A stretch of 10,486 bases of DNA from an uncultured Lysobacteraceae bacterium (lineage in GTDB: Bacteria; Pseudomonadota; Gammaproteobacteria; Xanthomonadales; Rhodanobacteraceae). Under the pieces are notes generated by a model. The model was not told the origin of the DNA. It saw nothing but the letters and a program-made list of their open reading frames with translations, and did no database searches. Positions within the stretch are counted from its first letter, which is position 1. Each line of letters begins with the position of its first letter. A program made the position numbers and the translations under genes. Shown piece after piece: positions 1 to 10,486 of this stretch. The stretch covers positions 1 to 10,486 of the forward strand of contig CAMLSI010000157.1 of the NCBI GenBank assembly GCA_946482585.1. Direction: 5' to 3'.

Positions 1-239
1 ACGGCGTGTTCGGAGGGCTGCTGCCGCTCATCGGGCTTGCCGTTGTGGCGCAGATAAGTCTTGTAGTCGCGCGCGGTTTCGCGATCTTCGATCGCGAGCA
101 GCGTGCGCAGCGCATCGAGCAGCGTGGTCTTGCCGGAACCGTTCGGCCCGACCACGGTGACGATGGCCGAATCCAGCGGCAGGGTGAAGCGCTGCCAGTA
201 GTCCCAATGCACCACTTCGAGTGCGCGGAACTCAAACAT
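1..239 (-). CDS. MukB/MksB/JetC-like SMC ATPase, N-terminal fragment (runs off the left edge)
   Basis: Only the first 79 codons are in the window. Translation from the ATG at 239-237 gives a beta-rich start followed by the Walker A loop GPNGSGKT at residues 31-38, then LLDALRTLL and a basic RDYKTYLRHNGKP stretch. An ABC-type P-loop this close to the N-terminus, followed by LLDA(L/I), is the head-domain layout of SMC-like ATPases of the MukB/MksB/JetC group. In that family the protein is long, with a coiled-coil arm and a C-terminal Walker B/signature half, and it clamps and extrudes DNA using ATP. None of those later parts is visible here. The start overlaps the stop of the MukE-like gene by 8 nt, so the two are probably translationally coupled. 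SbcC/RecF-type ATPases share such an N-terminus, but the two upstream partner genes favour a MukBEF-type complex. Confidence 0.8.
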   Translation of the reverse strand, partial: MFEFRALEVVHWDYWQRFTLPLDSAIVTVVGPNGSGKTTLLDALRTLLAIEDRETARDYKTYLRHNGKPDERQQPSEHA

Positions 240-918
240 GGCCGAACTCCGTGTCGGTCTCGTCCACGGCGTCCGCCGCGGTTTCGCCGTGCGCCCGTTC
301 GACGACGAACGCGAGCGCGCCGTCGAGCACGCGCCGTGCGGTGCGTTCGTAGTCGAACGCGAGATCGAGCAGCGGCCCCTCGATGATGCGTTCCTTGCGC
401 CGCACGATGAAGCCGTGGCGCGCGAGCACGCCGAGATTGATGTTGATGCGCATCTTGCCGCCGAGCTTGTCGCCGAAGTCGGCGATCAGCGTGCGCTCGG
501 CCAGCGGTTCGGCGACGTCGCTGCCGACCGGCACCGGCTTCATCTCGGCGAAGATCTGGCCCTGCTCCTGCTCGCGGTCGGCGTCGACGCGGCGGATCTG
601 GCGCTGGCGCTTGGGCAGAATCAGCAGACTCCACAGCACTACGAGCAGCGCGATGCAGTCGCGGTCGAAATCGAGATTGCTCGCCGACCACGCACGCGGG
701 CCGGCGAACACCGCCGCTTCCTGCGCCTTGGCGATCGCGACGGCGACATGGCCGGCGTACGGGTGATCGAGCAGGCGCAGTCCGGCCGCGGCGAGACGGC
801 GATCGAGCTCTTCGCGGAATCCCGCATCGGTCAGCGCCTGGCGCGCGAGTTCGTCTTCGCGCGGCAGCCAGCGTTCGGCGAGCAGGCGCGCGATCAGCGC
901 GGCGACGGGATCATTCAT
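232..918 (-). CDS. MukE/MksE/JetB-like (DUF4194-type) SMC accessory subunit
   Basis: A 228-aa protein; E. coli MukE is about 234 aa. In the family this subunit binds the kleisin and forms the non-SMC part of a loop-extruding condensin. Visible features are an N-terminal helical segment, a hydrophobic helix (CIALLVVLWSLLILPKRQ, about residues 88-105), a central charged segment, and a winged-helix-like stretch (GGKMRININLGVLARHGFIVRR, about 153-174) ending in an acidic tail. I infer the family mainly from size, the winged-helix-like pattern and position between a kleisin-like gene and an SMC ATPase gene. The assignment to MukE, MksE or JetB is therefore at superfamily level. The ATG at 918-916 has GAGG about 9 nt upstream inside the previous gene and overlaps that gene's stop by 8 nt. 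The gene's own TGA overlaps the next start by 8 nt. Confidence 0.75.
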   Translation of the reverse strand: MNDPVAALIARLLAERWLPREDELARQALTDAGFREELDRRLAAAGLRLLDHPYAGHVAVAIAKAQEAAVFAGPRAWSASNLDFDRDCIALLVVLWSLLILPKRQRQIRRVDADREQEQGQIFAEMKPVPVGSDVAEPLAERTLIADFGDKLGGKMRININLGVLARHGFIVRRKERIIEGPLLDLAFDYERTARRVLDGALAFVVERAHGETAADAVDETDTEFGHV

Positions 919-2245
919 CGATGGCTTCCTCGCTGCGTTCGCCCGCGGGCGGCGCAGGTGCTTGCAACGGGTGCGGCGCGAGCGGACGCAGACGGCCCGC
1001 GCTGATGTAGGCGATGCCGGCGCTGTCGACCGCTTCGAGCGCGCCGCTGAGTTCGAGCCGCAACGGCAGCCGGGCGAGTTCGGCGAGCGCGCCGTCGCGC
1101 GCGTGCGCGGCCGGATCGCCGAGCAGGCCGAGCAGCGACAGGCGATAGGCCGAGGTCGCGAAATCGGCGCTGGGAACGAATGCCGACAGCGGCGCGTCGT
1201 CCGCGAGCGCAGCCAGTTCGGCCTGCCAGTGCTGCGCGAGCTCGTAGTCGTTCGCGGCGATCGGCGCAGCGGCCTGTTCCGGCGCGCCGCGCGCCTCGGG
1301 CAGCGTTTCGACGACGCCGACGTCGCGCTCGCGTTCGACGAGTTCGAAGTCGGCGATGTCGAGCGCGATGTCGCCGAGTACGAAAGCCGGCGCGAGACGT
1401 TCGGCCACGACGTCGCGCGCGAGCGCGGCGAGCTGGTCGGTCTCCAGCGTGCGCAGCCACTGGTTCACGTCGGAGGAGGACAGGCCGCTCGCACCGAGAT
1501 GCACGCGATGACGATCGAGCTGATTCAGCGCGCGCTGGAATACCGACGCCTGGCGCAGCATCGCGCTCTGCGCGCGGCCGATCTGCTGCGCGACGCGGTG
1601 CGTGGCCGGATCGAGTTCGCCGTCCTGCGCGATCAGCCGGACGATGGCGGTGCCTTTCTCGACCCAGCGCCAGACGGACTTCAGAGTGGCCGCGGCGGCA
1701 CGGATGCGATGTTCCGAGCCGCTGAGCACGGCGCGGTCGAAGTCGTCGCGCAGCTCGTTGAGGCGCGACAGCAGATGCTGCAGATCGTCGCTGCCGACGC
1801 GGCCGGTGGCTTCGCCCGCGGCAATCTGCGCGGTCACGTAGGCGAGTTCGTCGCCCTCGCCCTGGAATTGCAGCAGAAGGCTCAGCGCCGACAGCGCCTG
1901 GCGGCCGACCGGGCTCACGCGGTAGCGCTGGGTTTCGCTGTCCCAGGTCAGCAGGCTGTTGTCGCGCAGCCGCACGAGCACGGTGTCGAGCTTGGTCGCG
2001 TCGACGTAGGCGAAATGCTCGCGCAGTTCCTGCGGACTCCAGTCCGGCGCCGCGCCGCGCTCGCCGATCGTGCGCAGAATGAGCAGACGCACCATCACCG
2101 CGTCTTCGCCGCCGTGGAACAGGGTCGAGAACGCGCGCAGCAGTTCGCGCGCCTTGCGCAGGCCGAACAGGGCGGGAATGTCGTTGGCGACGAGGCCGGG
2201 ACGCAGGAAATCCTGCAGGCCGTCATCGGACGCGGATGCGCTCAC
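911..2245 (-). CDS. MukF/MksF/JetA-like kleisin subunit of an SMC complex
   Basis: First gene of the SMC operon, 444 aa from the GTG at 2245-2243; E. coli MukF is about 440 aa. Residues about 15-110 look like a winged-helix domain: helix-rich start (LFGLRKARELLRAFSTLF), then SPQELREHFAYVDATKLDTVLVRLRDNSLL and a beta wing (TWDSETQRYRVSPVGRQAL). The middle is long amphipathic helices (RLNELRDDFDRAV, then the RQASVFQRALNQLDRH region), as in the kleisin middle domain. The C-terminal part is rich in Ala, Asp and Glu, ending in a Pro-rich acidic tail. The frame stays open upstream to a GTG at 2362, but that start lies inside the terminator hairpin and its extra residues are Pro/Arg/Ala-rich and unlike the rest, so GTG 2245 is preferred. 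No clear Shine-Dalgarno precedes it, so the start is uncertain. I do not see the classical DUF3375 N-terminus of type I JetA, so the subtype is open. Confidence 0.72.
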   Translation of the reverse strand: MSASASDDGLQDFLRPGLVANDIPALFGLRKARELLRAFSTLFHGGEDAVMVRLLILRTIGERGAAPDWSPQELREHFAYVDATKLDTVLVRLRDNSLLTWDSETQRYRVSPVGRQALSALSLLLQFQGEGDELAYVTAQIAAGEATGRVGSDDLQHLLSRLNELRDDFDRAVLSGSEHRIRAAAATLKSVWRWVEKGTAIVRLIAQDGELDPATHRVAQQIGRAQSAMLRQASVFQRALNQLDRHRVHLGASGLSSSDVNQWLRTLETDQLAALARDVVAERLAPAFVLGDIALDIADFELVERERDVGVVETLPEARGAPEQAAAPIAANDYELAQHWQAELAALADDAPLSAFVPSADFATSAYRLSLLGLLGDPAAHARDGALAELARLPLRLELSGALEAVDSAGIAYISAGRLRPLAPHPLQAPAPPAGERSEEAIDE

Positions 2246-2347
2246 TCGAGAAGAAAGCCACGAAACGGCCGGCGATGGTCGGACATGCGCGGCGGCAAGG
2301 CAAGCCGAAGGAGCGCCCGGCGGCCCGGAAATCCGCGGCGGACACAA
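2246..2347. other. Leader / candidate promoter region of the SMC operon
   Basis: About 100 bp separate the efflux-operon terminator from the GTG start of the kleisin-like gene. If the terminator works on the minus strand, the SMC operon needs its own promoter here. A very weak candidate on the minus strand is a TTGCCT box followed 17 nt later by GACCAT, which is too poor to call. I see no operator palindrome. Confidence 0.3.
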
Positions 2348-2378
2348 AAAAACGACCGGCACGGGGCCGGTCGTTTTT
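2348..2378. terminator. Strong intrinsic terminator after the RND pump gene (symmetrical, potentially bidirectional)
   Basis: A perfect 13-bp stem, AAAAACGACCGGC (2348-2360) with GCCGGTCGTTTTT (2366-2378), encloses a 5-nt loop ACGGG. On the minus strand it begins about 38 nt beyond the RND transporter stop codon and ends in a T run (complement of A2346-A2352), the classic Rho-independent form. Because the plus strand also ends in five T, it could act both ways. It separates the efflux operon from the SMC operon downstream on the same strand. Confidence 0.9.
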
Positions 2379-2416
2379 CAGTCAGGAGCGCGCCGGAAAC
2401 GCGCCGGGTGCCGGCT

Positions 2417-5400
2417 TCAATGCGCCGGCAGCGGTGCCGCCGCAGGCGCCCGGCGGCTGCCGCGCGTCGCGAGCTTGCGGATCAGCACGTAGAACACCGG
2501 CGTCAGGAACAGACCGAACAGCGTGACGCCGAGCATGCCGGCGAACACCGTGACGCCCATCGCGTGACGGATCTCCGCACCGGCGCCGTGCGCGAACACC
2601 AGCGGCAGCACGCCCATGATGAACGCGAAGCTCGTCATCAGGATCGGGCGCAAACGCAGACGGCAGGCTTCCAGCGCCGCTTCGACGATGCTCATGCCGC
2701 GCTTCTGTTCCAGCTCGCGCGCGAACTCGACGATGAGGATCGCGTTCTTGCACGCGAGCCCCATAAGCACGACCAGGCCGATCTGCGTGAAGATGTTGTT
2801 GTCGCCGCCGGTCAGCCAGACCCCGGCGATCGCCGACAGCATGCACATCGGCACGATCAGGATCACCGACAGCGGCAGCGACCAGCTCTCGTACAGCGCG
2901 GCCAGCACCAGGAACACCAGCAGCACGCAGAGCGGGAACACGAGCAGCGCGGCCTTGCCCTGCGTGACCTGCTGGTACGTGAGCGCGGTCCACTCGAAGC
3001 TCATGCCGTTGGGCAGTTGCCGCTGCGCGAACGCGGCGGCGCCCTGCACGGCCTGCGCCGACGACAGCAGGCGCGGATCGGCGCCGCCCTGCAGATCCGC
3101 CGCAGGGTAGCCGTTGTAGCGGATCACCGGATCCGGCCCGTAGGTCTGGCCGATCTTCACGACGCTGCCGATCGGCACCATCGCGCCGGCCGTGTTGCGC
3201 GTCTTGAGATTCGCGATGTCCGCGACTTCGTCGCGGAAGTTCGCGTCGGCCTGCGCGATCACCTGATACGTGCGGCCGAAGCGATTGAAATCGTTGACGT
3301 AGCGCGAGCCGAGGTAGACCTGCAGGGTTTCGAACAGATCGGTCAGCGCGACGCCCTGCTCCTTGGCCTTGATGCGGTCGACGTCGGCGCTGAGCTGCGG
3401 CACGTTGGACTGGTACGAACTGAACGGACGCTCGAACCCGGGCGTCGACATGATCGCGCCGCTGAGCGCTTCGACCTGCCGCTGCAGTTCGCCGTAACCG
3501 AGGCCGCTGCGATCCTGCACGTACATCTCGTAGCCGGCCGACTGGCCGAGGCCGAGCACCGGCGGCGGCATCGCCGCGAACGCGAGGCCTTCCTTGATCT
3601 CGCCGAAGAAGCGGCCGTTGAGCTGCTGCACGATCTGCTCGGCACTGAGCCCGTCGCGTTCGGAGAACGGTTTCAGGCCGAAGAAGATCGTGCCCATGTT
3701 CGGCGTGTTGGTGAACTGGATCGCGTTGAGACCCGGGAAAGCGACGGCCGTCGCCACGCCCGGCGTTTCCAGCGCAATTTCGCTCATGCGCCGGATCACC
3801 GCTTCGGTGCGATCGAGCGAAGCGCCTTCCGGCAGCTTCGCGCCGGCGAACAGGTACAGCTTGTCCTGCGTCGGAATGAAGCCGCCCGGCACCGCGCGGA
3901 AACCGATCACGGTGAGTCCGATCAGCAGCGCATAGACGAGCACCATCAGCGGTGCGCGCTTGAGCGCGGGCCGGCCGCCGTTCGCATAGCCGTCGCTGGC
4001 GCGGCGGAAGAAGCGGTTGAACGGACGGAACACCCAGCCGAAGGCCGCATCGATGAACTTCGTGAGCCAGTCCTTCGGCGCGCCGTGCGGCTTGAGCAGC
4101 GCCGCGGCGAGCGCCGGCGACAGGGTCAGCGAGTTGATCGCCGAAATCACCGTCGAGATCGCGATCGTCACGGCGAACTGGCGATAGAACTGTCCGGTGA
4201 CGCCGTCGATGAACGCGATCGGCACGAACACCGCACACAGCACCAGCGCGATCGCGATGATGGGACCGCTGACCTCGCTCATCGCGCGGTGCGCGGCCTC
4301 GAGCGGAGAATGACCCTCTTCGATGTTTCGCTCCACGTTCTCGACGACGACGATCGCGTCGTCGACGACGATGCCGATCGCGAGCACGAGGCCGAACAGA
4401 GTCAGCACGTTGATCGAGAAGCCGAGCATCCAGAGCACGGCGAACGTGCCGATCACCGATACCGGCACCGCGAGCAGCGGAATGATCGACGCGCGCCAGG
4501 TCTGCAGGAACAGGATCACGACGATGACCACGAGCGCGATCGCCTCGAACAGAGTGGTGATCACGGCCTTGATCGAATCGCGCACGAACACGGTCGGGTC
4601 GTAGACCACGTCCCAGGTGACGCCCTCGGGGAACTGCTTGGCGAGCTCACCCATCTTGGCGCGCACCGCGTCGGACATCGCGATCGCGTTGCTGCCCGGG
4701 GCCTGGAAGATCGGGATCGCGACGGCCTGCTGATTCGACAGCAGCGAGCGCAACGCGTATTCCGACGCGCCGAGTTCGATGCGCGCGACATCCTTGAGTC
4801 GCGCGACGGTGCCGTTCGCGTCGGTCTTGATGACGACGTTGCCGAACTCCTCTTCCGTGACCAGGCGGCCCTGTGCGTTGATCGACAGCTGCATCTCGGA
4901 ATTCATCTTCTGCGGCGGCGCGCCGATCGAACCGGCCGACACCTGCAGGTTCTGCTCCTGGATGGCGCGGGTCACGTCGCCCGCGGTCAGGCCGAGCGCG
5001 GCGACGCGGTCGGGCTGCAGCCAGACGCGCATGGAATAGTCGCCCGCACCGAAGATCAGCGCCTGGCCGACGCCGGAAATGCGCGCGATCTCATCCTTGA
5101 TGTGCAGTACCGCGTAGTTGCGCAGGTAGGTGATGTCGTAGTTGCCCTTGGGCGACAGCAAGTGCACGACCATGGTCAGGTTCGGCGACTGCTTCAGCGT
5201 CGTCACGCCGAGCCGGCGCACGTCTTCGGGCAGGCGCGGCGTGGCCTGGCTCACGCGGTTCTGCACCTGCACCTGCGCCAGGTCGATGTCGGTGCCGATC
5301 TTGAACGTGACCGTGAGCGACATGACGCCGTCGGAACCGGCGACGGACTTCATGTAGATCATGTTCTCGACGCCGGTGATCGCTTCTTCGAGCGGTGCGG

Positions 5401-5590
5401 CGACGGTTTCGGCGATGGTCTTGGGATTCGCGCCCGGATAGACCGCGCGCACCTGCACCGACGGCGGCACGACGTCGGGGTATTCGCTGATCGGCAGCAT
5501 CGGTATCGCGATGAGGCCGGCCACGAAGATGATGATGGAAAGCACCGCCGCGAAGATCGGGCGGTCTACGAAAAATCTGGAAAAGTCCAC
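2417..5590 (-). CDS. RND (HAE1 family) multidrug efflux transporter, MexF/OqxB-like inner-membrane subunit
   Basis: A complete 1057-aa protein, full length for the AcrB/MexB/MexF family. It is the proton-driven inner-membrane pump of a tripartite efflux system. The N-terminus FFVDRPIFAAVLSIIIF is the family's first membrane helix, followed by LPISEYPDVVPP and GANPKTIAETVAAPLEEAITGV. The proton-relay residues are all present: D410 and D411 (LAIGIVVDDAIVVVENVER, AcrB D407/D408), K948 (GLACKNAILIVEFA, AcrB K940) and R979 (RLRLRPILMTS, AcrB R971). Overall wording is closest to MexF-type pumps as I remember them; substrates cannot be read from the sequence. The start is GTG (5590-5588), fixed by AAGGAG at 5603-5598 with a 7-nt spacer. 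Adaptor and SDR-like genes lie upstream in the same orientation; the terminator at 2348-2378 follows. The pump should recruit an outer-membrane channel encoded elsewhere. Confidence 0.97.
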   Translation of the reverse strand: MDFSRFFVDRPIFAAVLSIIIFVAGLIAIPMLPISEYPDVVPPSVQVRAVYPGANPKTIAETVAAPLEEAITGVENMIYMKSVAGSDGVMSLTVTFKIGTDIDLAQVQVQNRVSQATPRLPEDVRRLGVTTLKQSPNLTMVVHLLSPKGNYDITYLRNYAVLHIKDEIARISGVGQALIFGAGDYSMRVWLQPDRVAALGLTAGDVTRAIQEQNLQVSAGSIGAPPQKMNSEMQLSINAQGRLVTEEEFGNVVIKTDANGTVARLKDVARIELGASEYALRSLLSNQQAVAIPIFQAPGSNAIAMSDAVRAKMGELAKQFPEGVTWDVVYDPTVFVRDSIKAVITTLFEAIALVVIVVILFLQTWRASIIPLLAVPVSVIGTFAVLWMLGFSINVLTLFGLVLAIGIVVDDAIVVVENVERNIEEGHSPLEAAHRAMSEVSGPIIAIALVLCAVFVPIAFIDGVTGQFYRQFAVTIAISTVISAINSLTLSPALAAALLKPHGAPKDWLTKFIDAAFGWVFRPFNRFFRRASDGYANGGRPALKRAPLMVLVYALLIGLTVIGFRAVPGGFIPTQDKLYLFAGAKLPEGASLDRTEAVIRRMSEIALETPGVATAVAFPGLNAIQFTNTPNMGTIFFGLKPFSERDGLSAEQIVQQLNGRFFGEIKEGLAFAAMPPPVLGLGQSAGYEMYVQDRSGLGYGELQRQVEALSGAIMSTPGFERPFSSYQSNVPQLSADVDRIKAKEQGVALTDLFETLQVYLGSRYVNDFNRFGRTYQVIAQADANFRDEVADIANLKTRNTAGAMVPIGSVVKIGQTYGPDPVIRYNGYPAADLQGGADPRLLSSAQAVQGAAAFAQRQLPNGMSFEWTALTYQQVTQGKAALLVFPLCVLLVFLVLAALYESWSLPLSVILIVPMCMLSAIAGVWLTGGDNNIFTQIGLVVLMGLACKNAILIVEFARELEQKRGMSIVEAALEACRLRLRPILMTSFAFIMGVLPLVFAHGAGAEIRHAMGVTVFAGMLGVTLFGLFLTPVFYVLIRKLATRGSRRAPAAAPLPAH

Positions 5591-5858
5591 GGTTGTACTC
5601 CTTTACCGGGGAAAGCGCTGTTCTTGTCGTGCGGGGCTGGAACGTGTGTCGCGTCAGTCGGCGTGGTGAAACCCATCCCCCAGACCCTCCGGCCTGTCGG
5701 GCGTTCAAGGTCGTCGGAGCCTTGCGGTTCCAGGCGACGGCCTTTCACCCTTTCGAAGGGGGTCAGAGCGTCGCAACCCGGAAGCCCCATTCAAGGAGAG
5801 GGTCGGGTGGGGATGGGTGCCCCCGACGTCGCCGAAAAACCCAAACAAACCGGATCGT
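5591..5858. repeat. 268-bp intergenic stretch inside the efflux operon, resembling a dispersed intergenic repeat
   Basis: The adaptor and pump genes of such operons are normally only a few to tens of bases apart, but here 268 bp lie between them. The stretch holds C/G-run segments unlike the coding DNA around it: CCCATCCCC near 5671-5680 and its inverse GGGGATGGG near 5810-5818, about 140 bp apart; a small hairpin CCCTT-TCG-AAGGG at 5748-5760; and GGAGAGGGTCGGGTGG at about 5795-5810. The last is the style of the GAGAGGGT/GGGTGGGGATGGG dispersed repeats common between genes in many proteobacteria. The frame 5566-5790 on the minus strand is open for 74 codons but looks like translated repeat, not a gene. 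The Shine-Dalgarno of the pump gene sits at the right end on the minus strand (5598-5603). Confidence 0.5.
5598..5603 (-). promoter_or_regulatory. Ribosome binding site deciding the GTG start of the RND pump
   Basis: On the minus strand AAGGAG lies 7 nt before the GTG at 5590-5588. The adaptor gene has the same AAGGAG with the same 7-nt spacing, which supports the GTG as the real start and suggests similar initiation strength. Confidence 0.8.
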
Positions 5859-7058
5859 TCACCGCCCTCCTGCCGCCGCCGCAACCGCAGCCGCCTGTTC
5901 GGGTTTCTCCATCGGCACGACCTGCGGATCGACCGGCATGCCCGGGAAGAACACTTTCTGCACGCCGTTGACGATGACGCGGTCTTCGGGCGCGAGTCCC
6001 TGCGACACGATGCGCAAGCCGTCGACCTGCGCGCCGAGCTTCACGTCGCGACGCAGCGCCTTGTTTTCCGGGCCGATCACGTAGACGAACTTGCGGTCCT
6101 GGTCGGTGAGCACCGCGCGGTCGTTGATCAGCAGCGCCGACTGCGCGCCGCTGCCGAGCAACTGCACGCGCGCGAACAGGCCCGGCGTGAACAGACCGTC
6201 CTTGTTCGAGAACACGGCGCGCGCGCGGATCGTGCCGGTGCCCGCGTCGAGTTCGTTGTCGACGAAGTTCATCGTGCCCTCGTGCGGATAGCCTTCCTCG
6301 TCGGCGAGGCCCATGCGCACCGGATTGCCGGCTTCGCGCGCACTCGGCAGTTCGCCGGCGCGTTCGAGACCCTGATAGCGCAGGTAGGTGTTCTCGTCGC
6401 CCTCGAAGCTCACGTAGACCGGGTCCATCGAGACCACGGTCGTCAGCAGCGTCGTGCCGGGCGCGACGAGGTTGCCCGGCGTCACGAGCGCCTTGCCGAC
6501 GCGGCCGTCGATCGGCGCGGTCACGCGCGTGAACTCGAGATTGAGCCGTGCCTGCTCGGCCGCGGCCTGCGTCGCCTTGATGTCGGCCTGCGCCTGGGCG
6601 AGTTCGTCCTCGCGCAGATCGAGGTCGTTGCGCGCGACGAGCTTGTTCGCGACGAGCTGGCGCGAGCGCTCGAGCTGGCGCTGCGCGAGCGCCGCTCGCG
6701 AACGCGCGCGTTCGACCTCGGCCACGGCGCGCGAATGCGCCGCGCGGTATTCGCGATCGTCGATCTGGAACAGCAGGTCTCCCTTGCTCACGCGGCGGCC
6801 TTCCTCGAAGTTCGCCTTGTCGAGATAGCCCGCGACGCGCGGACGCACTTCGACTTTGTCGACGGCTTCGATGCGGCCGGTGAATTCGTCCCAGAGCGTC
6901 ACATCCTTCTTGACGACGGCGGCGACGCTGACCTGCGGCGGCGGCATCTGCGGCGGCGCGGCCGAGCTGCCGCAACCGGACAGCGCGAGACCGATCAGCA
7001 TGAGCAGGCCGGCATTGGCGAGCGCGGGCCAGACGGGCATCGTGGTGTTGGTTTTCAT
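5859..7058 (-). CDS. RND efflux periplasmic adaptor lipoprotein, MexE/AcrA-like
   Basis: A 399-aa membrane-fusion protein that links the inner-membrane pump to an outer-membrane channel in the periplasm. The N-terminal hydrophobic stretch LLMLIGLALSG ends in the lipobox LSGC with Cys29, so it should be processed and lipid-anchored. Then come the first lipoyl-type half (FTGRIEAVDKVEVRPRVAGY and EGRRVSKGDLLFQIDDREY, about residues 58-105), a helical hairpin rich in Ala/Arg/Glu/Gln (about 105-170), the second half (FTRVTAPIDGRVGKALVTPGNLV), a beta-barrel region and an Ala-rich C-terminus. These are the AcrA/MexE landmarks in the right order. The frame is open to 7352, but the ATG at 7058 has AAGGAG (7071-7066) 7 nt upstream and begins a proper signal peptide, so that start is chosen. 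It lies 20 bp after the SDR-like gene and is co-oriented with the pump. Confidence 0.95.
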   Translation of the reverse strand: MKTNTTMPVWPALANAGLLMLIGLALSGCGSSAAPPQMPPPQVSVAAVVKKDVTLWDEFTGRIEAVDKVEVRPRVAGYLDKANFEEGRRVSKGDLLFQIDDREYRAAHSRAVAEVERARSRAALAQRQLERSRQLVANKLVARNDLDLREDELAQAQADIKATQAAAEQARLNLEFTRVTAPIDGRVGKALVTPGNLVAPGTTLLTTVVSMDPVYVSFEGDENTYLRYQGLERAGELPSAREAGNPVRMGLADEEGYPHEGTMNFVDNELDAGTGTIRARAVFSNKDGLFTPGLFARVQLLGSGAQSALLINDRAVLTDQDRKFVYVIGPENKALRRDVKLGAQVDGLRIVSQGLAPEDRVIVNGVQKVFFPGMPVDPQVVPMEKPEQAAAVAAAAGGR

Positions 7059-7078
7059 GTTCCCACTCCTTCGGATCT

Positions 7079-7789
7079 TCAAACGTGTACGGGTTCGGGA
7101 CTGCCGCCGGTGCGCAAGTCGAGCACGGCTGCGCTGCCGTCGGAGTGCTGCAACAGATCGATCACGGCCTGGCCGACGGCGTCGACTTCCATCCACTCGC
7201 TGCAGGCGCAGTGATCGTTGCGATGTGTGCGTACCAGGCCGGCCAGCGCGAGCTGCTGCACGCGCACCGGCAGGTCGCGGCTTTCGGCATGGACGACCTT
7301 GGCGAGCATGCGCAGCGCGGCGTTGGCGATGGAGAAATGGCCGAAACCGCACCAGGGGTGCGAGGTCGCCGCGCTCGCGATGCCGAGATACAGCGCGTTC
7401 GGCGCGCTCTGCGCGAGCAGCGGAATCAGCGCGCGCGCCGCGTTGAAATGCGTGACCACGTGTGCGTGCAGGCGGTCTTCGAGAAAGACGTCGTCGCGGT
7501 CCATGAGCCGGCCACAGTCGCGCTCGGGTCCGATCGCGACCACCACGCCGGCGTAGCGCCGCCTCAGCGCAACCAGCTGCTGCACGAGATCCTTGGCCGC
7601 CGTGTCGCTCTCCACGCTCGCGGTCAGCACCGTCAGCGCAGCCGGCCGGCCGAGCCGTTCGGTCAGTTGCAGCAACGTGTCGCGATGCCGGCCGACCGCG
7701 ACCACCGGATAGCCTTCGGCCAGCAACGCGGCGACTACGCCGCTGCCGATACCGCCGCTGGCACCGATGACGATGACACTGGATTTCAT
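7079..7789 (-). CDS. SDR-family NAD(P)-binding protein with degenerate active site
   Basis: A 236-aa Rossmann-fold protein of the short-chain dehydrogenase/reductase family. The dinucleotide-binding loop GASGGIGSG is at residues 9-17, followed by VVAVGRH after the second strand, the position that helps choose NAD or NADP. The strand with the usual catalytic Ser is present (LGIASAATS, S139). However, where the family has YxxxK, the sequence reads FSIAN (F152, N156), so both catalytic Tyr and Lys are replaced, and the NNAG-type motif is AIGPE. It is therefore probably not a conventional oxidoreductase and may be a cofactor-sensing or structural protein. The ATG at 7789 is preferred, with GAGG 9 nt upstream; an in-frame ATG at 7804 would add five residues. 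It is the first gene of the efflux operon, ends 20 bp before the adaptor gene, and is divergent from the LysR gene. Confidence 0.88.
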   Translation of the reverse strand: MKSSVIVIGASGGIGSGVVAALLAEGYPVVAVGRHRDTLLQLTERLGRPAALTVLTASVESDTAAKDLVQQLVALRRRYAGVVVAIGPERDCGRLMDRDDVFLEDRLHAHVVTHFNAARALIPLLAQSAPNALYLGIASAATSHPWCGFGHFSIANAALRMLAKVVHAESRDLPVRVQQLALAGLVRTHRNDHCACSEWMEVDAVGQAVIDLLQHSDGSAAVLDLRTGGSPEPVHV

Positions 7790-7813
7790 GCAGACCGACC
7801 TCATCCCATAAAC

Positions 7814-7876
7814 GGACCGGCGGACGCCGCCTGCGTCGGTCCGACCGGACTGCGCAGTCCCCAGGGCGCCCGGGGG
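7814..7876. promoter_or_regulatory. Cluster of palindromes in the leader of the efflux operon
   Basis: Three adjacent dyads lie between the two divergent genes, close upstream of the SDR-like start on the minus strand. The first is a bulged hairpin: GGACC (7814-7818) pairs with GGTCC (7838-7842) and GACGC (7823-7827) with GCGTC (7833-7837). The second is a perfect 14-bp palindrome, GGACTGCGCAGTCC (7847-7860). The third is CCCC (7859-7862) with GGGG (7872-7875) around GGGCGCCC (7864-7871). If transcription starts to the right of them they would fold in the mRNA leader. They could equally be protein-binding dyads. No T run follows, so they are not simple terminators. Confidence 0.5.
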
Positions 7877-7910
7877 TTCAGGTCGGCTGAATTGGGCACG
7901 CACCCGTGCT

Positions 7911-7938
7911 TTGATTAGGGGGCCGAATCGGGAATGAT
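7911..7938 (+). promoter_or_regulatory. Candidate sigma-70 promoter of the LysR-family gene
   Basis: TTGATT (7911-7916) and AATGAT (7933-7938) each match four of six consensus bases, with a 16-nt spacer. The -10 overlaps the left arm of the inverted repeat at 7935-7960, which would fit autorepression by the regulator. Matches are modest, so this is tentative. Confidence 0.3.
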
Positions 7939-7960
7939 TGTCCCGTCAATGCAACAATCA
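7935..7960. promoter_or_regulatory. Candidate LysR-type operator (7-bp inverted repeat)
   Basis: TGATTGT (7935-7941) and ACAATCA (7954-7960) form a perfect inverted repeat with a 12-nt spacer. A T-N11-A arrangement (T7941, A7953) of the kind bound by LysR-type regulators lies within it. It sits immediately upstream of the regulator's start codon and in the shared region with the divergent efflux operon, the usual place for such sites. Its A/T-rich arms stand out from the G/C-rich surroundings. Confidence 0.5.
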
Positions 7961-7968
7961 AGGCGGTT

Positions 7969-8940
7969 ATGTCACGCGACTTCAATGAAACGCTGATCTT
8001 TGTGCGCGTGGTGGAACACGGAGGCTTCAGCGCGGCCGCGCGTTCGCTCGGCCTGCCCAAGACCAGCGTGAGCCGCAAAGTGCAGGAACTCGAGGATCGC
8101 CTGGGCCTGCATCTGCTCAAACGCACGACGCGGCGCATCGGCCTGACCGAAGCCGGCACCTTGTACTACGAACATTGCCGCCACATCGCGCGCGACCTCG
8201 AAGCCGCCGAAAGCGCCGTCAACCAGTTGCACGGCGCGCCGCGCGGCTGGCTGCGCGTGACGGCGCCCTACACGCTCGGCAGCAACGCGCTCGCCCCGAT
8301 CCTGCCGGAGTTCCTGCAACGCCATCCGGAACTGCGCGTGGAACTCGTGCTCAGCAACGACAAGCTCGACCTGATCGGTTCGGACATCGATCTCGCCCTG
8401 CGCGTCGGCGCGCTGGCCGACTCGACTTTCACGGCGCGGCGCCTCGGCAGTTTCGTCGCGCAGGTCTATGCGAGCCATGACTACCTCGCGCGCTGCGGCG
8501 AACCGACGCGCCCCGAGGAACTCGTGCATCACCGTACCCTCGCGATGAGCCAGCATCGCGGCGCGAACGGACGCTACTGCTGGCCGCTGCACAACGGCAG
8601 CGTCAGCGACGACTACGTGGTCGCGCCGAGCGTCGTCGCGAACGATCCGACCGTGCTGCGCAGCGCGCTCGTCGGCGGTCAGGGGCTCGCACTGATCAGC
8701 GACAGCCTGGTCGAGCCGCTCGTGGCCATGGGCAAGCTGCGCCGCGTGCTGCACGGCTGGGAAAGTCCCGCGCTCGATCTCAACGCGGTCTACCCGCCGG
8801 GACGCTCGCAATTGCCCAAGGTGCGCGTGTTCGTGGATTTCCTGCTCGAACGCATGAGCCTGACCGAGTGGTGGCATCCCTGCGAACAGATGCGGCAGGC
8901 GGCGTTCGGCCCTCAGCTGCTCCACTCGCCGGAGACGTAG
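7969..8940 (+). CDS. LysR-family transcriptional regulator (CrgA/DmlR/YafC-like)
   Basis: A complete 323-aa LysR-type regulator, slightly longer than the usual 300 or so because of a C-terminal tail. The N-terminal winged helix-turn-helix is clear: FVRVVEHGGFSAAARSLGLP (residues 11-30), then KTSVSRKVQELEDRLG and LLKRTTRRIGLTEAG. The effector domain begins GWLRVTAPYTLGSNALAPILPEFL and contains DIDLALRVGAL, the wording of the CrgA/DmlR-like subgroup, which often controls neighbouring redox or transport genes. The ATG at 7969 has an AAGGCGG purine tract (7960-7966) close upstream. It is divergent from the SDR-adaptor-pump operon with 179 bp between starts, so it is the likely controller of that operon and perhaps of itself. 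Whether it activates or represses, and which ligand it senses, cannot be read from the sequence. Its last 28 bp overlap the end of the convergent YchJ gene. Confidence 0.95.
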   Translation: MSRDFNETLIFVRVVEHGGFSAAARSLGLPKTSVSRKVQELEDRLGLHLLKRTTRRIGLTEAGTLYYEHCRHIARDLEAAESAVNQLHGAPRGWLRVTAPYTLGSNALAPILPEFLQRHPELRVELVLSNDKLDLIGSDIDLALRVGALADSTFTARRLGSFVAQVYASHDYLARCGEPTRPEELVHHRTLAMSQHRGANGRYCWPLHNGSVSDDYVVAPSVVANDPTVLRSALVGGQGLALISDSLVEPLVAMGKLRRVLHGWESPALDLNAVYPPGRSQLPKVRVFVDFLLERMSLTEWWHPCEQMRQAAFGPQLLHSPET

Positions 8941-9305
8941 AACCAGTGCCCGCCTTCGCGGCGGAAACGGCTGAGCTCGCGCAGCCGCTGCATGCTGCCG
9001 CCGCCGACCTTGAATTTCGCGACGAATTCCACGAACGCGTTGTCGGCATCGACCGGCTGGTAACGCAGGATCTTCAGGCCGTGCCAGCGCGGCGCGTTTT
9101 TATCGTGCGCGAGGTTCAGCGCGGCCGGCCGCGTCGAGCGGTGCCAGCTCCGCAGCAGATAGTCCTCGAGCGCCAGCACGTAGGCGCTGTAGCGCGAACG
9201 CATCAGCGCCTCGGCCGTCGGCGCCGGTTCGCCCGCGTGCAACGGACCGCAGCAGGCGGCGTAGGCGCGATCGGAACCGCAAGGACAATCGGCGGGTGCG
9301 TTCAT
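8913..9305 (-). CDS. ychJ: YchJ / UPF0225 family protein with one SEC-C metal-binding motif
   Basis: A 130-aa protein of the YchJ family, whose function is unknown. The N-terminus carries a SEC-C zinc-binding motif with Cys7, Cys9, Cys18 and Cys19 (CPCGSDRAYAACC), followed by the family signature LMRSRYSAYVL (about residues 35-45), a YLLRSWHRSTRP segment, and an NTF2-like beta-rich core ending in FRREGGHWFYVSGEW. E. coli YchJ, as I recall it, has a second SEC-C motif at its C-terminus; this protein stops before that point, so it is a short form with only one. The ATG at 9305 has no strong Shine-Dalgarno. The gene converges on the LysR gene with a 28-bp overlap at the 3' ends, so no separate terminator lies between them. 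Confidence 0.92.
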   Translation of the reverse strand: MNAPADCPCGSDRAYAACCGPLHAGEPAPTAEALMRSRYSAYVLALEDYLLRSWHRSTRPAALNLAHDKNAPRWHGLKILRYQPVDADNAFVEFVAKFKVGGGSMQRLRELSRFRREGGHWFYVSGEWSS

Positions 9306-9402
9306 GGACGGTCGCAGACGAAAGCGGCGCGCATTCTCGCCGCAATCGCGCCGCCGTCACAGGGGCCGCCGCGAGGCCGGTCGTCGTCCAGGCAGGGCCG
9401 GT
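9306..9402. other. Short gap between the small membrane gene and ychJ, no terminator seen
   Basis: The 97-bp gap contains the direct repeat AGGCCGGTCG at 9374-9383, whose second copy (9405-9414) lies over the 3' end of the membrane gene, 31 bp away. There is no stem with a T run, so read-through from the membrane gene into ychJ is plausible. Confidence 0.3.
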
Positions 9403-9600
9403 TCAGGCCGGTCGGGCGCCGAGCAGCCGCGCCGGCAGGAACAGCAGCGCGCGCAGGAATTCGAATACGGCCGATACCGTGATGCCCACGAGCCGGAACG
9501 GCAGGCTCAGCAGCCAGACCAGCGGATAGGCGATCAGCGCGAGCAGCGCCAGCGGCCAGCAGACGACGAGCAGCAACAACCAGAGCAGGAACTTCAGCAT
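9403..9600 (-). CDS. Small hydrophobic membrane protein, 65 aa, function unknown
   Basis: From the ATG at 9600 the product is 65 aa and almost entirely hydrophobic: FLLWLLLLVVCWPLALLALI (residues 4-23), AYPLVWLLSL around a Pro, then a semi-amphipathic segment LVGITVSAVFEFLRALLFL ending in PARLLGARPA. This predicts two, possibly three, inner-membrane segments with Pro kinks and short basic loops. GGAGG lies 11 nt upstream (9616-9612), a slightly long spacing. The frame is open upstream to 9732, but those residues are Arg-rich and non-membrane-like, so the shorter form is preferred. I recognise no functional family. It lies 97 bp before the YchJ gene in the same orientation and could be co-transcribed with it. 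Confidence 0.7.
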   Translation of the reverse strand: MLKFLLWLLLLVVCWPLALLALIAYPLVWLLSLPFRLVGITVSAVFEFLRALLFLPARLLGARPA

Positions 9601-9782
9601 GACGCACGGCGCCTCCAGGGACGTCGCGGTCAGGTTCGCAGCGCGCCGCACCGCGCGCGTGTGCCGGAAGTCGCAGGCATCGCGTTCAGCTTTCGCACGA
9701 TGTGACCGGGACCACAGCCGCGTCGCAGGCACCGAGACCGCACCGCCGCAAGCTGCGCTCCCGCCTGTGGAGATTTACCTTT
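9601..9782. other. Divergent intergenic region between the membrane peptide and the 133-aa gene
   Basis: 182 bp separate the two divergent starts and should hold both promoters. I see the two ribosome binding sites (GGAGG complement at 9612-9616 and TGGAG at 9768-9772) but no convincing -35/-10 pair or palindrome. Confidence 0.3.
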
Positions 9783-10184
9783 ATGCACACGCGAATTTCC
9801 TATACCGATCCGTTGCTGGAACTCCTCGACTGCATCGAGGACGCGGTTCAGTTGCTCGCGTTCGACTATTTCGCCGCCGCCGGCGACGAACTGCGCCGCG
9901 CCGGCGCACTGCTCGCCGGGGCACTGGAGGAGTGGCGCGGCAACGACGCCGAGCTCGCGCGGCAATGGTTGCAGCAGGCTACCGCGGCGAACGGCGGCAC
10001 TGCACTGCGCGAGCGTCGCGGCCACTGCGTCGGAGCGCTCTGGCGCGCGCGTCGCGCGGTCCGGCGACACTGGCTCGCGCGCCTGGGTGTTGCATGGGAT
10101 CCCTACGACAGCGCGCTCGCGGCGCCGGGCACGCGCACACGGTTGCGACTCGTCGACGACGATCCCGGCGAACCGGCCGCATGA
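9783..10184 (+). CDS. Hypothetical protein, 133 aa, helical
   Basis: From the ATG at 9783 the product is 133 aa. TGGAG (9768-9772) lies 10 nt upstream, and the first residues (MHTRISYTDPLLELLDCIEDAVQLLAFDYF) read as real protein. The frame is open from a GTG at 9702, but those extra codons are Arg/Pro/Ala-rich, so the shorter form is preferred. Predicted content is mostly alpha-helical: residues 9-50 form amphipathic helices with ELRRAGALLAGALEEW, 55-70 another, 76-102 a strongly basic helix (RERRGHCVGALWRARRAVRRHW), and the tail is acidic (DDDPGEPAA). There is no signal peptide and no membrane segment. I recognise no family. A plausible guess is a small nucleic-acid- or protein-binding factor because of the basic helix, but nothing proves it. 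It converges with the EF-hand gene, with 16 bp between the stops. Confidence 0.6.
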   Translation: MHTRISYTDPLLELLDCIEDAVQLLAFDYFAAAGDELRRAGALLAGALEEWRGNDAELARQWLQQATAANGGTALRERRGHCVGALWRARRAVRRHWLARLGVAWDPYDSALAAPGTRTRLRLVDDDPGEPAA

Positions 10185-10191
10185 AATGTCG

Positions 10192-10215
10192 GCGCCGCCG
10201 CTACCGCGGCGGCGC
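10192..10215. terminator. GC-rich hairpin between convergent genes
   Basis: GCGCCGCCGC (10192-10201) and GCGGCGGCGC (10206-10215) form a perfect 10-bp all-G/C stem with a 4-nt loop TACC. It sits between the stops of the 133-aa gene and the EF-hand gene, and covers the EF-hand stop codon (10203-10201). No T run follows on either strand, so it is not a canonical intrinsic terminator. In high-GC genomes such hairpins may end transcription or protect the 3' ends of both mRNAs. Confidence 0.45.
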
Positions 10216-10486
10216 GCCGAGCTCGCGCACGTCGAGAAAGCCGTTGCGATTCGCATCCTGCCGCTTGAACACCTCGCCGAGCCGCGCGCGGTGACGCGAG
10301 AGGGAGATCGGGCGCGTGTTCGGACCGACCACGGCCGGATCGAACTCGTCGAGATCGACGACGCCGTTGCGGTTCGCATCCATCTGCCGGAACGCGTCGC
10401 TGAGCTTGTCCTGGTACTCGCTCAAGCTCACGCGCCCGTCGCCGTCACGATCGAATTGCGAGAGGTAGTCCTGCGTCGACGCGGCA
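10201..10486 (-). CDS. EF-hand calcium-binding protein, C-terminal part (runs off the right edge)
   Basis: The frame is open from the window edge at 10485 to the TAG at 10203-10201, giving 95 residues of a protein whose start is outside. Three 12-residue EF-hand loops can be read in order: DRDGDGRVSLSE (textbook D-x-D-x-D-G-x-h-x-x-x-E pattern), DANRNGVVDLDE and DANRNGFLDVRE. In the last two, positions 1, 3, 5, 6 and 12 are D, N, N, G and E, all compatible with calcium binding. Loops are separated by about 20-30 residues, as in paired EF-hands. Bacterial proteins of this type are often secreted or periplasmic calcium binders, but any signal peptide would lie beyond the edge. A GTG at 10431 could be mistaken for a start, but it cuts through the first EF-hand. 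Confidence 0.88.
   Translation of the reverse strand, partial: AASTQDYLSQFDRDGDGRVSLSEYQDKLSDAFRQMDANRNGVVDLDEFDPAVVGPNTRPISLSRHRARLGEVFKRQDANRNGFLDVRELGAPPR

Follow-up and report, generated by a model that had tools for sequence, protein, structure and literature searches.

A putative kleisin-KITE-SMC operon of Lysobacterales and its relatives, found with and without a Toprim nuclease gene

Introduction

The structural maintenance of chromosomes (SMC) family of motors spans both the condensins that pack chromosomes and the Wadjet systems that defend cells by cutting plasmids, and it is between these roles that an operon at the left edge of a 10,486-nucleotide stretch from an uncultured Lysobacteraceae bacterium (GenBank assembly GCA_946482585.1, contig CAMLSI010000157.1, positions 1 to 10,486; hereafter the window) has to be placed. 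The operon encodes a kleisin-like protein, a KITE-like protein and the beginning of an SMC ATPase, and a preliminary description regarded it as a MukBEF, MksBEF or Wadjet-like complex of unclear subtype, whose role as a housekeeping condensin or a defence system would be told from the gene after the SMC ATPase. The window ends inside the SMC gene, before the place of any following gene. In relatives this gene does separate the loci, and with both answers, a Toprim nuclease resembling JetD/MksG being carried by 17 of 94 loci and absent after the SMC gene in 74. We assign a probability of roughly 65% to the reading that the operon encodes a chromosomal three-subunit loop-extruding SMC complex, to which a plasmid-cutting nuclease module is optionally added.

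Results and Discussion

Homologues of the two smaller subunits are numerous, with at least 397 found for the kleisin and at least 1747 for the KITE protein at E ≤ 1e-3. A scan of genome contigs yielded 24 loci, and whole-genome searches with a kleisin alignment gave 77 hits, comprising 71 further regions and six already among the 24; with L113 a duplicate of L017, 94 distinct loci (L numbers throughout) were compared. They belong to Lysobacterales (Tahibacter, Lysobacter, Luteimonas, Vulcaniibacterium, Pseudoxanthomonas, Frateuria and others), to Chitinilyticum and its kin, and to one metagenome-assembled genome (MAG) of Desulfuromonadales. Within the order of L001 the kleisin alignment had hits in 32 of 299 genomes, and within that of L018 in 45 of 300; in the phylum of the Desulfuromonadales locus L016 it had one among 198, namely L016 itself. 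A search across Gammaproteobacteria found one of 276, the genome on which the search was centred, at settings (E ≤ 1e-30, three candidates scored per genome) under which distant gammaproteobacterial members may still exist. The genes present are always co-oriented and ordered kleisin, KITE, SMC (94/94 loci), with the SMC gene present in 93, and the many homologues together with this shared order argue that the gene set seen in the window is not due to chance. At L077 (minus strand), the kleisin and KITE genes stand without a neighbouring SMC gene; the KITE gene is directly followed by other genes, and several kb after it are visible.

The Toprim gene, encoding ~400–420 residues, lies directly after the SMC gene in 16 loci (L006, L010, L015, L019, L076, L096–L099, L101–L103, L128, and L134–L136, with L103 cut by a contig end). 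In the seventeenth carrier, L003 (Tahibacter caeni), the locus is cut and the Toprim gene lies on another contig of the genome. The three remaining loci are not scorable at the locus: L009 is cut, L067 consists partly of N, and L077 has no SMC gene next to the KITE gene. In the 74 nuclease-free loci at least 1,300 bases are visible after the SMC gene, 73 of them without any N and L116 with two. A genome-wide search for the Toprim nuclease in 74 genomes was positive for those of L003 and L006 only, and for none of the 72 genomes with a non-carrier locus, a set that includes L009, L067 (only where its sequence is open), and L077, and excludes the nuclease-free L012, L014, L020, L021, and L024. 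The aligned Toprim proteins resemble JetD, with all 20 matching the PADLOC model JetD1 at E ≤ 1e-5 (JetD2 is matched by two), and with the catalytic residues E, D-x-D, and E-Q-E invariant in all 20 and aligning with those of JetD. A profile search of the PDB with the same proteins returned chance-level rows only. The Toprim frame at L019 (14983-16206) matches over nearly its full length; a length of 332 residues is given in a public record of Pseudoxanthomonas wuyuanensis, where the start is probably annotated too late.

No convincing nuclease remnant was found after the SMC gene in the 74 stretches tested, out of 77 collected (L003 and L009 were practically without sequence, and L067 consisted of N). 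One candidate at L014 (28% identity over 138 residues, E 2e-4 with composition correction off) was considered weak and not counted.

Comparison of close relatives places presence and absence at one fixed site. Between L015 and L013 the SMC ends are 92% and the downstream genes 94% alike, with the gap between them measuring 1,238 bp in the former and 143 bp in the latter; both flanks are likewise common to L006 and L002 (1,319 versus 61 bp), and to L019 and L008 (2,010 versus 102 bp). L014 shares both flanks with L015, and L001 with L006, but another gene sits between them in L001. The L010/L017 pair is uninformative because its alignment is confined to the SMC gene. On the core tree the 17 carriers among 94 tips require at least 11 changes, 10 after collapsing branches with support below 0.9, and 11 again on 90 tips (L009, L067, L077, and L116 left out), compared with ~15.5 for shuffled carrier labels; the nuclease trait is therefore clustered but labile. 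The nuclease tree tracks the core tree (Mantel r 0.82, p 1e-4, 16 carriers), which favours long co-inheritance with losses. A scenario of pure loss would cost 30 losses on 91 tips, and the nucleases of L096–L098 are divergent, such that some gains are likely, although we claim no order of events. This appears to be the kind of step treated in the review PMC10586767, or its reverse, repeated within one family.

The tree also bears on the window itself, whose nearest neighbour is L001, with L003 and L006 as their sister pair. As both of the latter carry the nuclease, including the Tahibacter caeni genome of L003, the window's operon could continue past the left edge as a full four-gene Wadjet-like defence system with a Toprim nuclease after the SMC gene. 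This is rather unlikely, however, with no nuclease in L001 or in L002, L004, L005, and L007, and with the nuclease absent in 74 of the 91 scorable loci.

The core genes that lack the nuclease are under purifying selection and are not decaying. In simple Nei-Gojobori counts on hand-picked pairs, the ratio of nonsynonymous to synonymous substitution rates in ten nuclease-free pairs is 0.02–0.17 for the kleisin, 0–0.19 for the KITE, and 0.01–0.24 for the SMC gene, with values of 0.02–0.17 for the core genes of four mixed pairs and two carrier pairs. Upstream flanks are common within lineages among the 92 examined, with groups of 19 and 14 loci mixing carriers and non-carriers, and the largest group, of 30, containing non-carriers only. 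Canonical Smc scores over its cut-off in 16 of the 18 genomes searched (18 of the first 24 loci), the two misses being MAGs.

These observations can be set against the proposal that the system serves defence in every genome bearing it, with nuclease-free copies recruiting an effector encoded elsewhere, or entrapping or silencing plasmids. The patchy distribution, the relationship of the SMC protein to JetC of type I Wadjet, and the extra operon genes of some lineages (L018, L021–L024) would suit it, but the flanks are lineage-typical and not island-like, and no JetD-like nuclease was found in the 72 non-carrier genomes, other nuclease families not having been searched for. Furthermore, where the gene following SMC was scanned in nuclease-free loci, it is an ordinary one, encoding a DUF938 methyltransferase (L004, L005), a sensor kinase (L016), RlmL (L021, L022), a chemoreceptor (L023), and an alcohol dehydrogenase (L013), and we regard defence in all bearers as distinctly unlikely. 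Among 72,556 plasmid records, relatives of the L016 kleisin were absent and relatives of the L016 SMC protein numbered two; phage records held no relative of the L001 SMC protein, and viral contigs gave no match to the kleisin profile.

In the favoured reading, that of a chromosomal motor with an optional nuclease, we infer that a dimer of the ~940-residue SMC protein assembles with its heads bridged by the kleisin and the KITE protein, and that the heads would bind and hydrolyse ATP to drive DNA loop extrusion, as in MukBEF or JetABC. In most bearers, which are nuclease-free, the complex would do no more than extrude loops, probably on the chromosome and alongside canonical Smc. In the minority, the Toprim nuclease of the JetD/MksG kind, encoded directly after SMC, would cut small circular DNA once this is fully extruded, making the armed complex a plasmid-restriction system; the complex would thus be Wadjet-like with the nuclease and MksBEF-like without it. 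As most relatives have this motor without the nuclease and a minority have it with one, a single gene may separate the condensin and defence jobs. The further step, of one SMC family switching repeatedly between armed plasmid restriction and a chromosomal motor free of the nuclease, through the gain or loss of one gene at a fixed chromosomal site whilst the motor stays constrained, is offered tentatively, its chances lying a little short of even.

The identity of the three subunits rests on evidence of different kinds. Both the kleisin and the KITE protein fall below every threshold of Pfam, NCBIfam, and PADLOC, such that annotation with these libraries would miss both. The window's kleisin is matched by no Pfam or PADLOC model at E ≤ 1, JetA of any type included, its PDB sequence search is also empty, and its sole NCBIfam match is to the Rv3488 regulator family (E 0.0078, 16.4 bits against a cut-off of 140). 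The L016 kleisin weakly matches the same family (E 9e-4) and PADLOC PDC-S06 (E 3.5e-4); the former match was set aside as probably reflecting a shared winged helix, and the latter as weak. MukF was not recovered by sequence profile, with a PDB search using 60 kleisins giving a transcriptional regulator (E 0.028) and two cytochromes only, and no window protein matches KicB (MukF) at E ≤ 1. A structure model of the kleisin (m1afec76f6e31, mean predicted local distance difference test 79.9, predicted template modelling score 0.47) ranks MukF first, weakly. For the KITE protein, DUF4194 (E 0.11, 12.6 bits against a cut-off of 32.7) and PADLOC JetB1 (E 0.035) are matched below threshold, the PDB sequence search returns an unrelated heat-shock protein (E 0.011), and a PDB profile search with 46 KITE proteins matched nothing; JetB is the best fold match of its structure model, with MukE also among the matches. 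Among the families singled out for comparison in the preliminary description, DUF4194 is sub-threshold for the KITE protein, and DUF3375 and, by sequence, MukF (KicB) are unmatched by the kleisin. The description's remark that the kleisin is not of the DUF3375 type holds across the family, as none of 96 kleisins matches a JetA profile.

The N-terminus of the window's SMC fragment resembles an SMC/AAA_29 head, with matches to AAA_29/AAA_23 and SMC_N. The MukB N-terminal domain PF04310 reaches 20.7 bits with this fragment and 15.4 bits with the full-length L001 protein, against a cut-off of 23. PADLOC JetC1 is matched at E 3e-8 by the window's 79 residues, at 3e-16 by the L001 protein (where mad3 scores higher), and at 7e-22 by the L016 protein. 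Full-length relatives contain the two halves of the head, a signature motif and Walker B, and their central part gives a weak hinge-like match; the 22 complete proteins listed measure 929–941 residues, and in 18 aligned proteins Walker A is invariant, the signature reads DGEASGGQQ, and the Walker B stretch is nearly invariant. These features, together with the nearest folds of the two partners, bear out the kleisin-KITE-SMC set first proposed. AAA_29/AAA_23 and SMC_N matches are, however, common to repair ATPases of the SbcC/Rad50/RecN type, and the SMC protein also finds Rad50 in the PDB. That the ATPase is such a protein, with the kleisin and KITE likeness accidental, is nonetheless scarcely credible, given the constant kleisin and KITE neighbours, the KITE fold nearest to JetB, and, in the L001 protein, a central region weakly resembling a hinge (PF06470, E 0.011, below cut-off), with no zinc-hook family among its listed Pfam matches.

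Comparison with Wadjet used JetA to JetD profiles built from 15 DUF4194 operons of Gammaproteobacteria (JetD from 13), one of which, L152, was checked with PADLOC and is type I. By hmmsearch the JetC profile matches all 94 SMC sequences (one a duplicate; best 7e-36) and the JetD profile two of 16 Toprim proteins, and no KITE protein among 96 matches JetB (the window and the duplicate counted here, as for the kleisins). In profile-profile comparison, the SMC family aligns with JetC at E 7.7e-40 over 866 columns and the Toprim family with JetD at 3.6e-10 (probability 96.7%), compared with probabilities of 7–8% for kleisin/JetA (7%) and KITE/JetB. The operon thus resembles type I Wadjet in its kleisin-KITE-SMC(-Toprim) order, its SMC protein related to JetC lengthwise, its KITE fold, and the JetD catalytic residues of its nuclease. 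It differs in a kleisin that is not DUF3375, a KITE protein far under the DUF4194 cut-off, an SMC protein of ~940 residues against ~1115–1225 in the reference operons, and a nuclease that is usually absent. Because the genome of L001 also holds a complete type I JetABCD (L152:4318-11069), the two are separate systems. Types II and III were rejected, with only type I JetC models among the best 25 PADLOC rows for two full-length SMC proteins, and with the nuclease favouring JetD1 over JetD2 and the kleisin matching no JetA type.

With MksBEF and MksBEFG the operon shares a three-gene core, an optional fourth nuclease gene, and coexistence with Smc, and an SMC protein shorter than JetC and a mostly absent nuclease would also fit an ordinary Pseudomonas aeruginosa-type MksBEF. 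The comparison was made with L171, a three-gene operon (426, 199, and 924 residues; minus strand, SMC at 6570-9344) of a gammaproteobacterium, which has similar gene sizes and is perhaps of the Pseudomonas type, no named MksBEF sequence having been compared. L171 matches neither the JetA to JetD profiles nor any profile of the present family (hmmsearch, E ≤ 10), and profile alignment to its SMC protein spans only 89 columns, making an ordinary MksBEF quite improbable; in the present family, moreover, nuclease presence varies at one site. Relatives of the L171 SMC protein occur in five of the 72,556 plasmid records.

Likeness to MukBEF is confined to the weak MukF rank of the kleisin model and MukE among the KITE fold matches, against which stand the missing KicB match, the sub-threshold MukB N-terminal domain, and the fact that Smc is not replaced here; a KicB search in 94 gammaproteobacterial genomes yielded no reference set. 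Smc-ScpAB and the present family share the ATPase head motifs and, going by what is established for SMC complexes, would have loop-extruder architecture in common, but the canonical Smc model TIGR02168 (cut-off 567) gives 26.4 bits with the window fragment and 90.6 and 88.8 bits with two full-length relatives, and canonical Smc is a separate gene in the 16 genomes noted above. From sequence and structure models, the system is best read as an unclassified branch of the Muk/Mks/Wadjet group. This agrees with the less-described branch initially suspected, the KITE fold pointing to JetB, the kleisin fold weakly to MukF, and the SMC sequence to type I JetC. No paper on this SMC branch was found among the titles and opening lines of abstracts.

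The open reading frames and the Walker A motif of the window (Table 1) agree with the three co-oriented genes first described, and the junctions noted there as overlapping do so by 8 bp each (kleisin/KITE at 911-918, KITE/SMC at 232-239). A mechanical list of open reading frames extends the kleisin to 2362 (483 residues). The start at 2245 gives an N-terminus as in the relative P0003 (89% identical, 444 residues); as P0001 (93% identical) is listed with 458 residues, the exact start is not proven. The hairpin upstream is a possible operon boundary, with two terminator-like sites found in 2100-2500 against 0.7 expected from shuffles, by consensus match only. Beyond it, RND efflux pump genes occupy 2417-7061 on the minus strand.

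Other genes accompany the operon in some relatives. In Chitinilyticum and its kin, an extra gene of ~216–218 residues lies between kleisin and KITE, the L018 copy of which is matched neither in PADLOC (E ≤ 0.1) nor in NCBIfam (E ≤ 0.01). A short gene resembling a GNAT acetyltransferase by eye lies between KITE and SMC in L022 (11949-12494) and L023 (12858-13412). Upstream of the kleisin gene in one relative, L001 (7722-9338), a protein with Endotoxin_N and jacalin-like domains is encoded.

Table 1. Features of the window and, in the last four rows, of related loci.
Feature	Position	Strand	Basis or remark
SMC operon, order kleisin-KITE-SMC	2245 to left edge	minus	runs off the window
Kleisin-like subunit, 444 aa, GTG start (MukF/JetA position)	911..2245	minus	open reading frame, homologues, structure model
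KITE-like subunit, 228 aa, ATG start (MukE/JetB position)	232..918	minus	open reading frame
SMC ATPase, 5' part, 79 codons, ATG start	1..239	minus	open reading frame, Pfam, relatives
Walker A GPNGSGKT, SMC head residues 31-38	126..149	minus	sequence; invariant in 18/18 aligned relatives
Terminator-like hairpin and T run, between RND pump gene and kleisin gene	2353..2369	minus	consensus match only
AcrB-type permease	2417-5590	minus	OqxB model, below its cut-off
HlyD-type adaptor	5859-7061	minus	library scan
LysR regulator	7969-8940	plus	library scan
EF-hand protein, open at its start, right window edge	10201-10485		library scan
Extra gene between kleisin and KITE	L018:11259-11915		
Extra gene between kleisin and KITE	L021:11279-11932		
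Extra gene between kleisin and KITE	L023:11334-11984		
Extra gene between kleisin and KITE	L024:11323-11973		

Conclusions

The new point is that the nuclease is optional within one SMC family. Sister genomes that differ by the nuclease at one site make the motor with and without it directly comparable, and, if the proposed switching is true, the family would constitute a present-day natural experiment on the interconversion of condensins and defence SMC systems.
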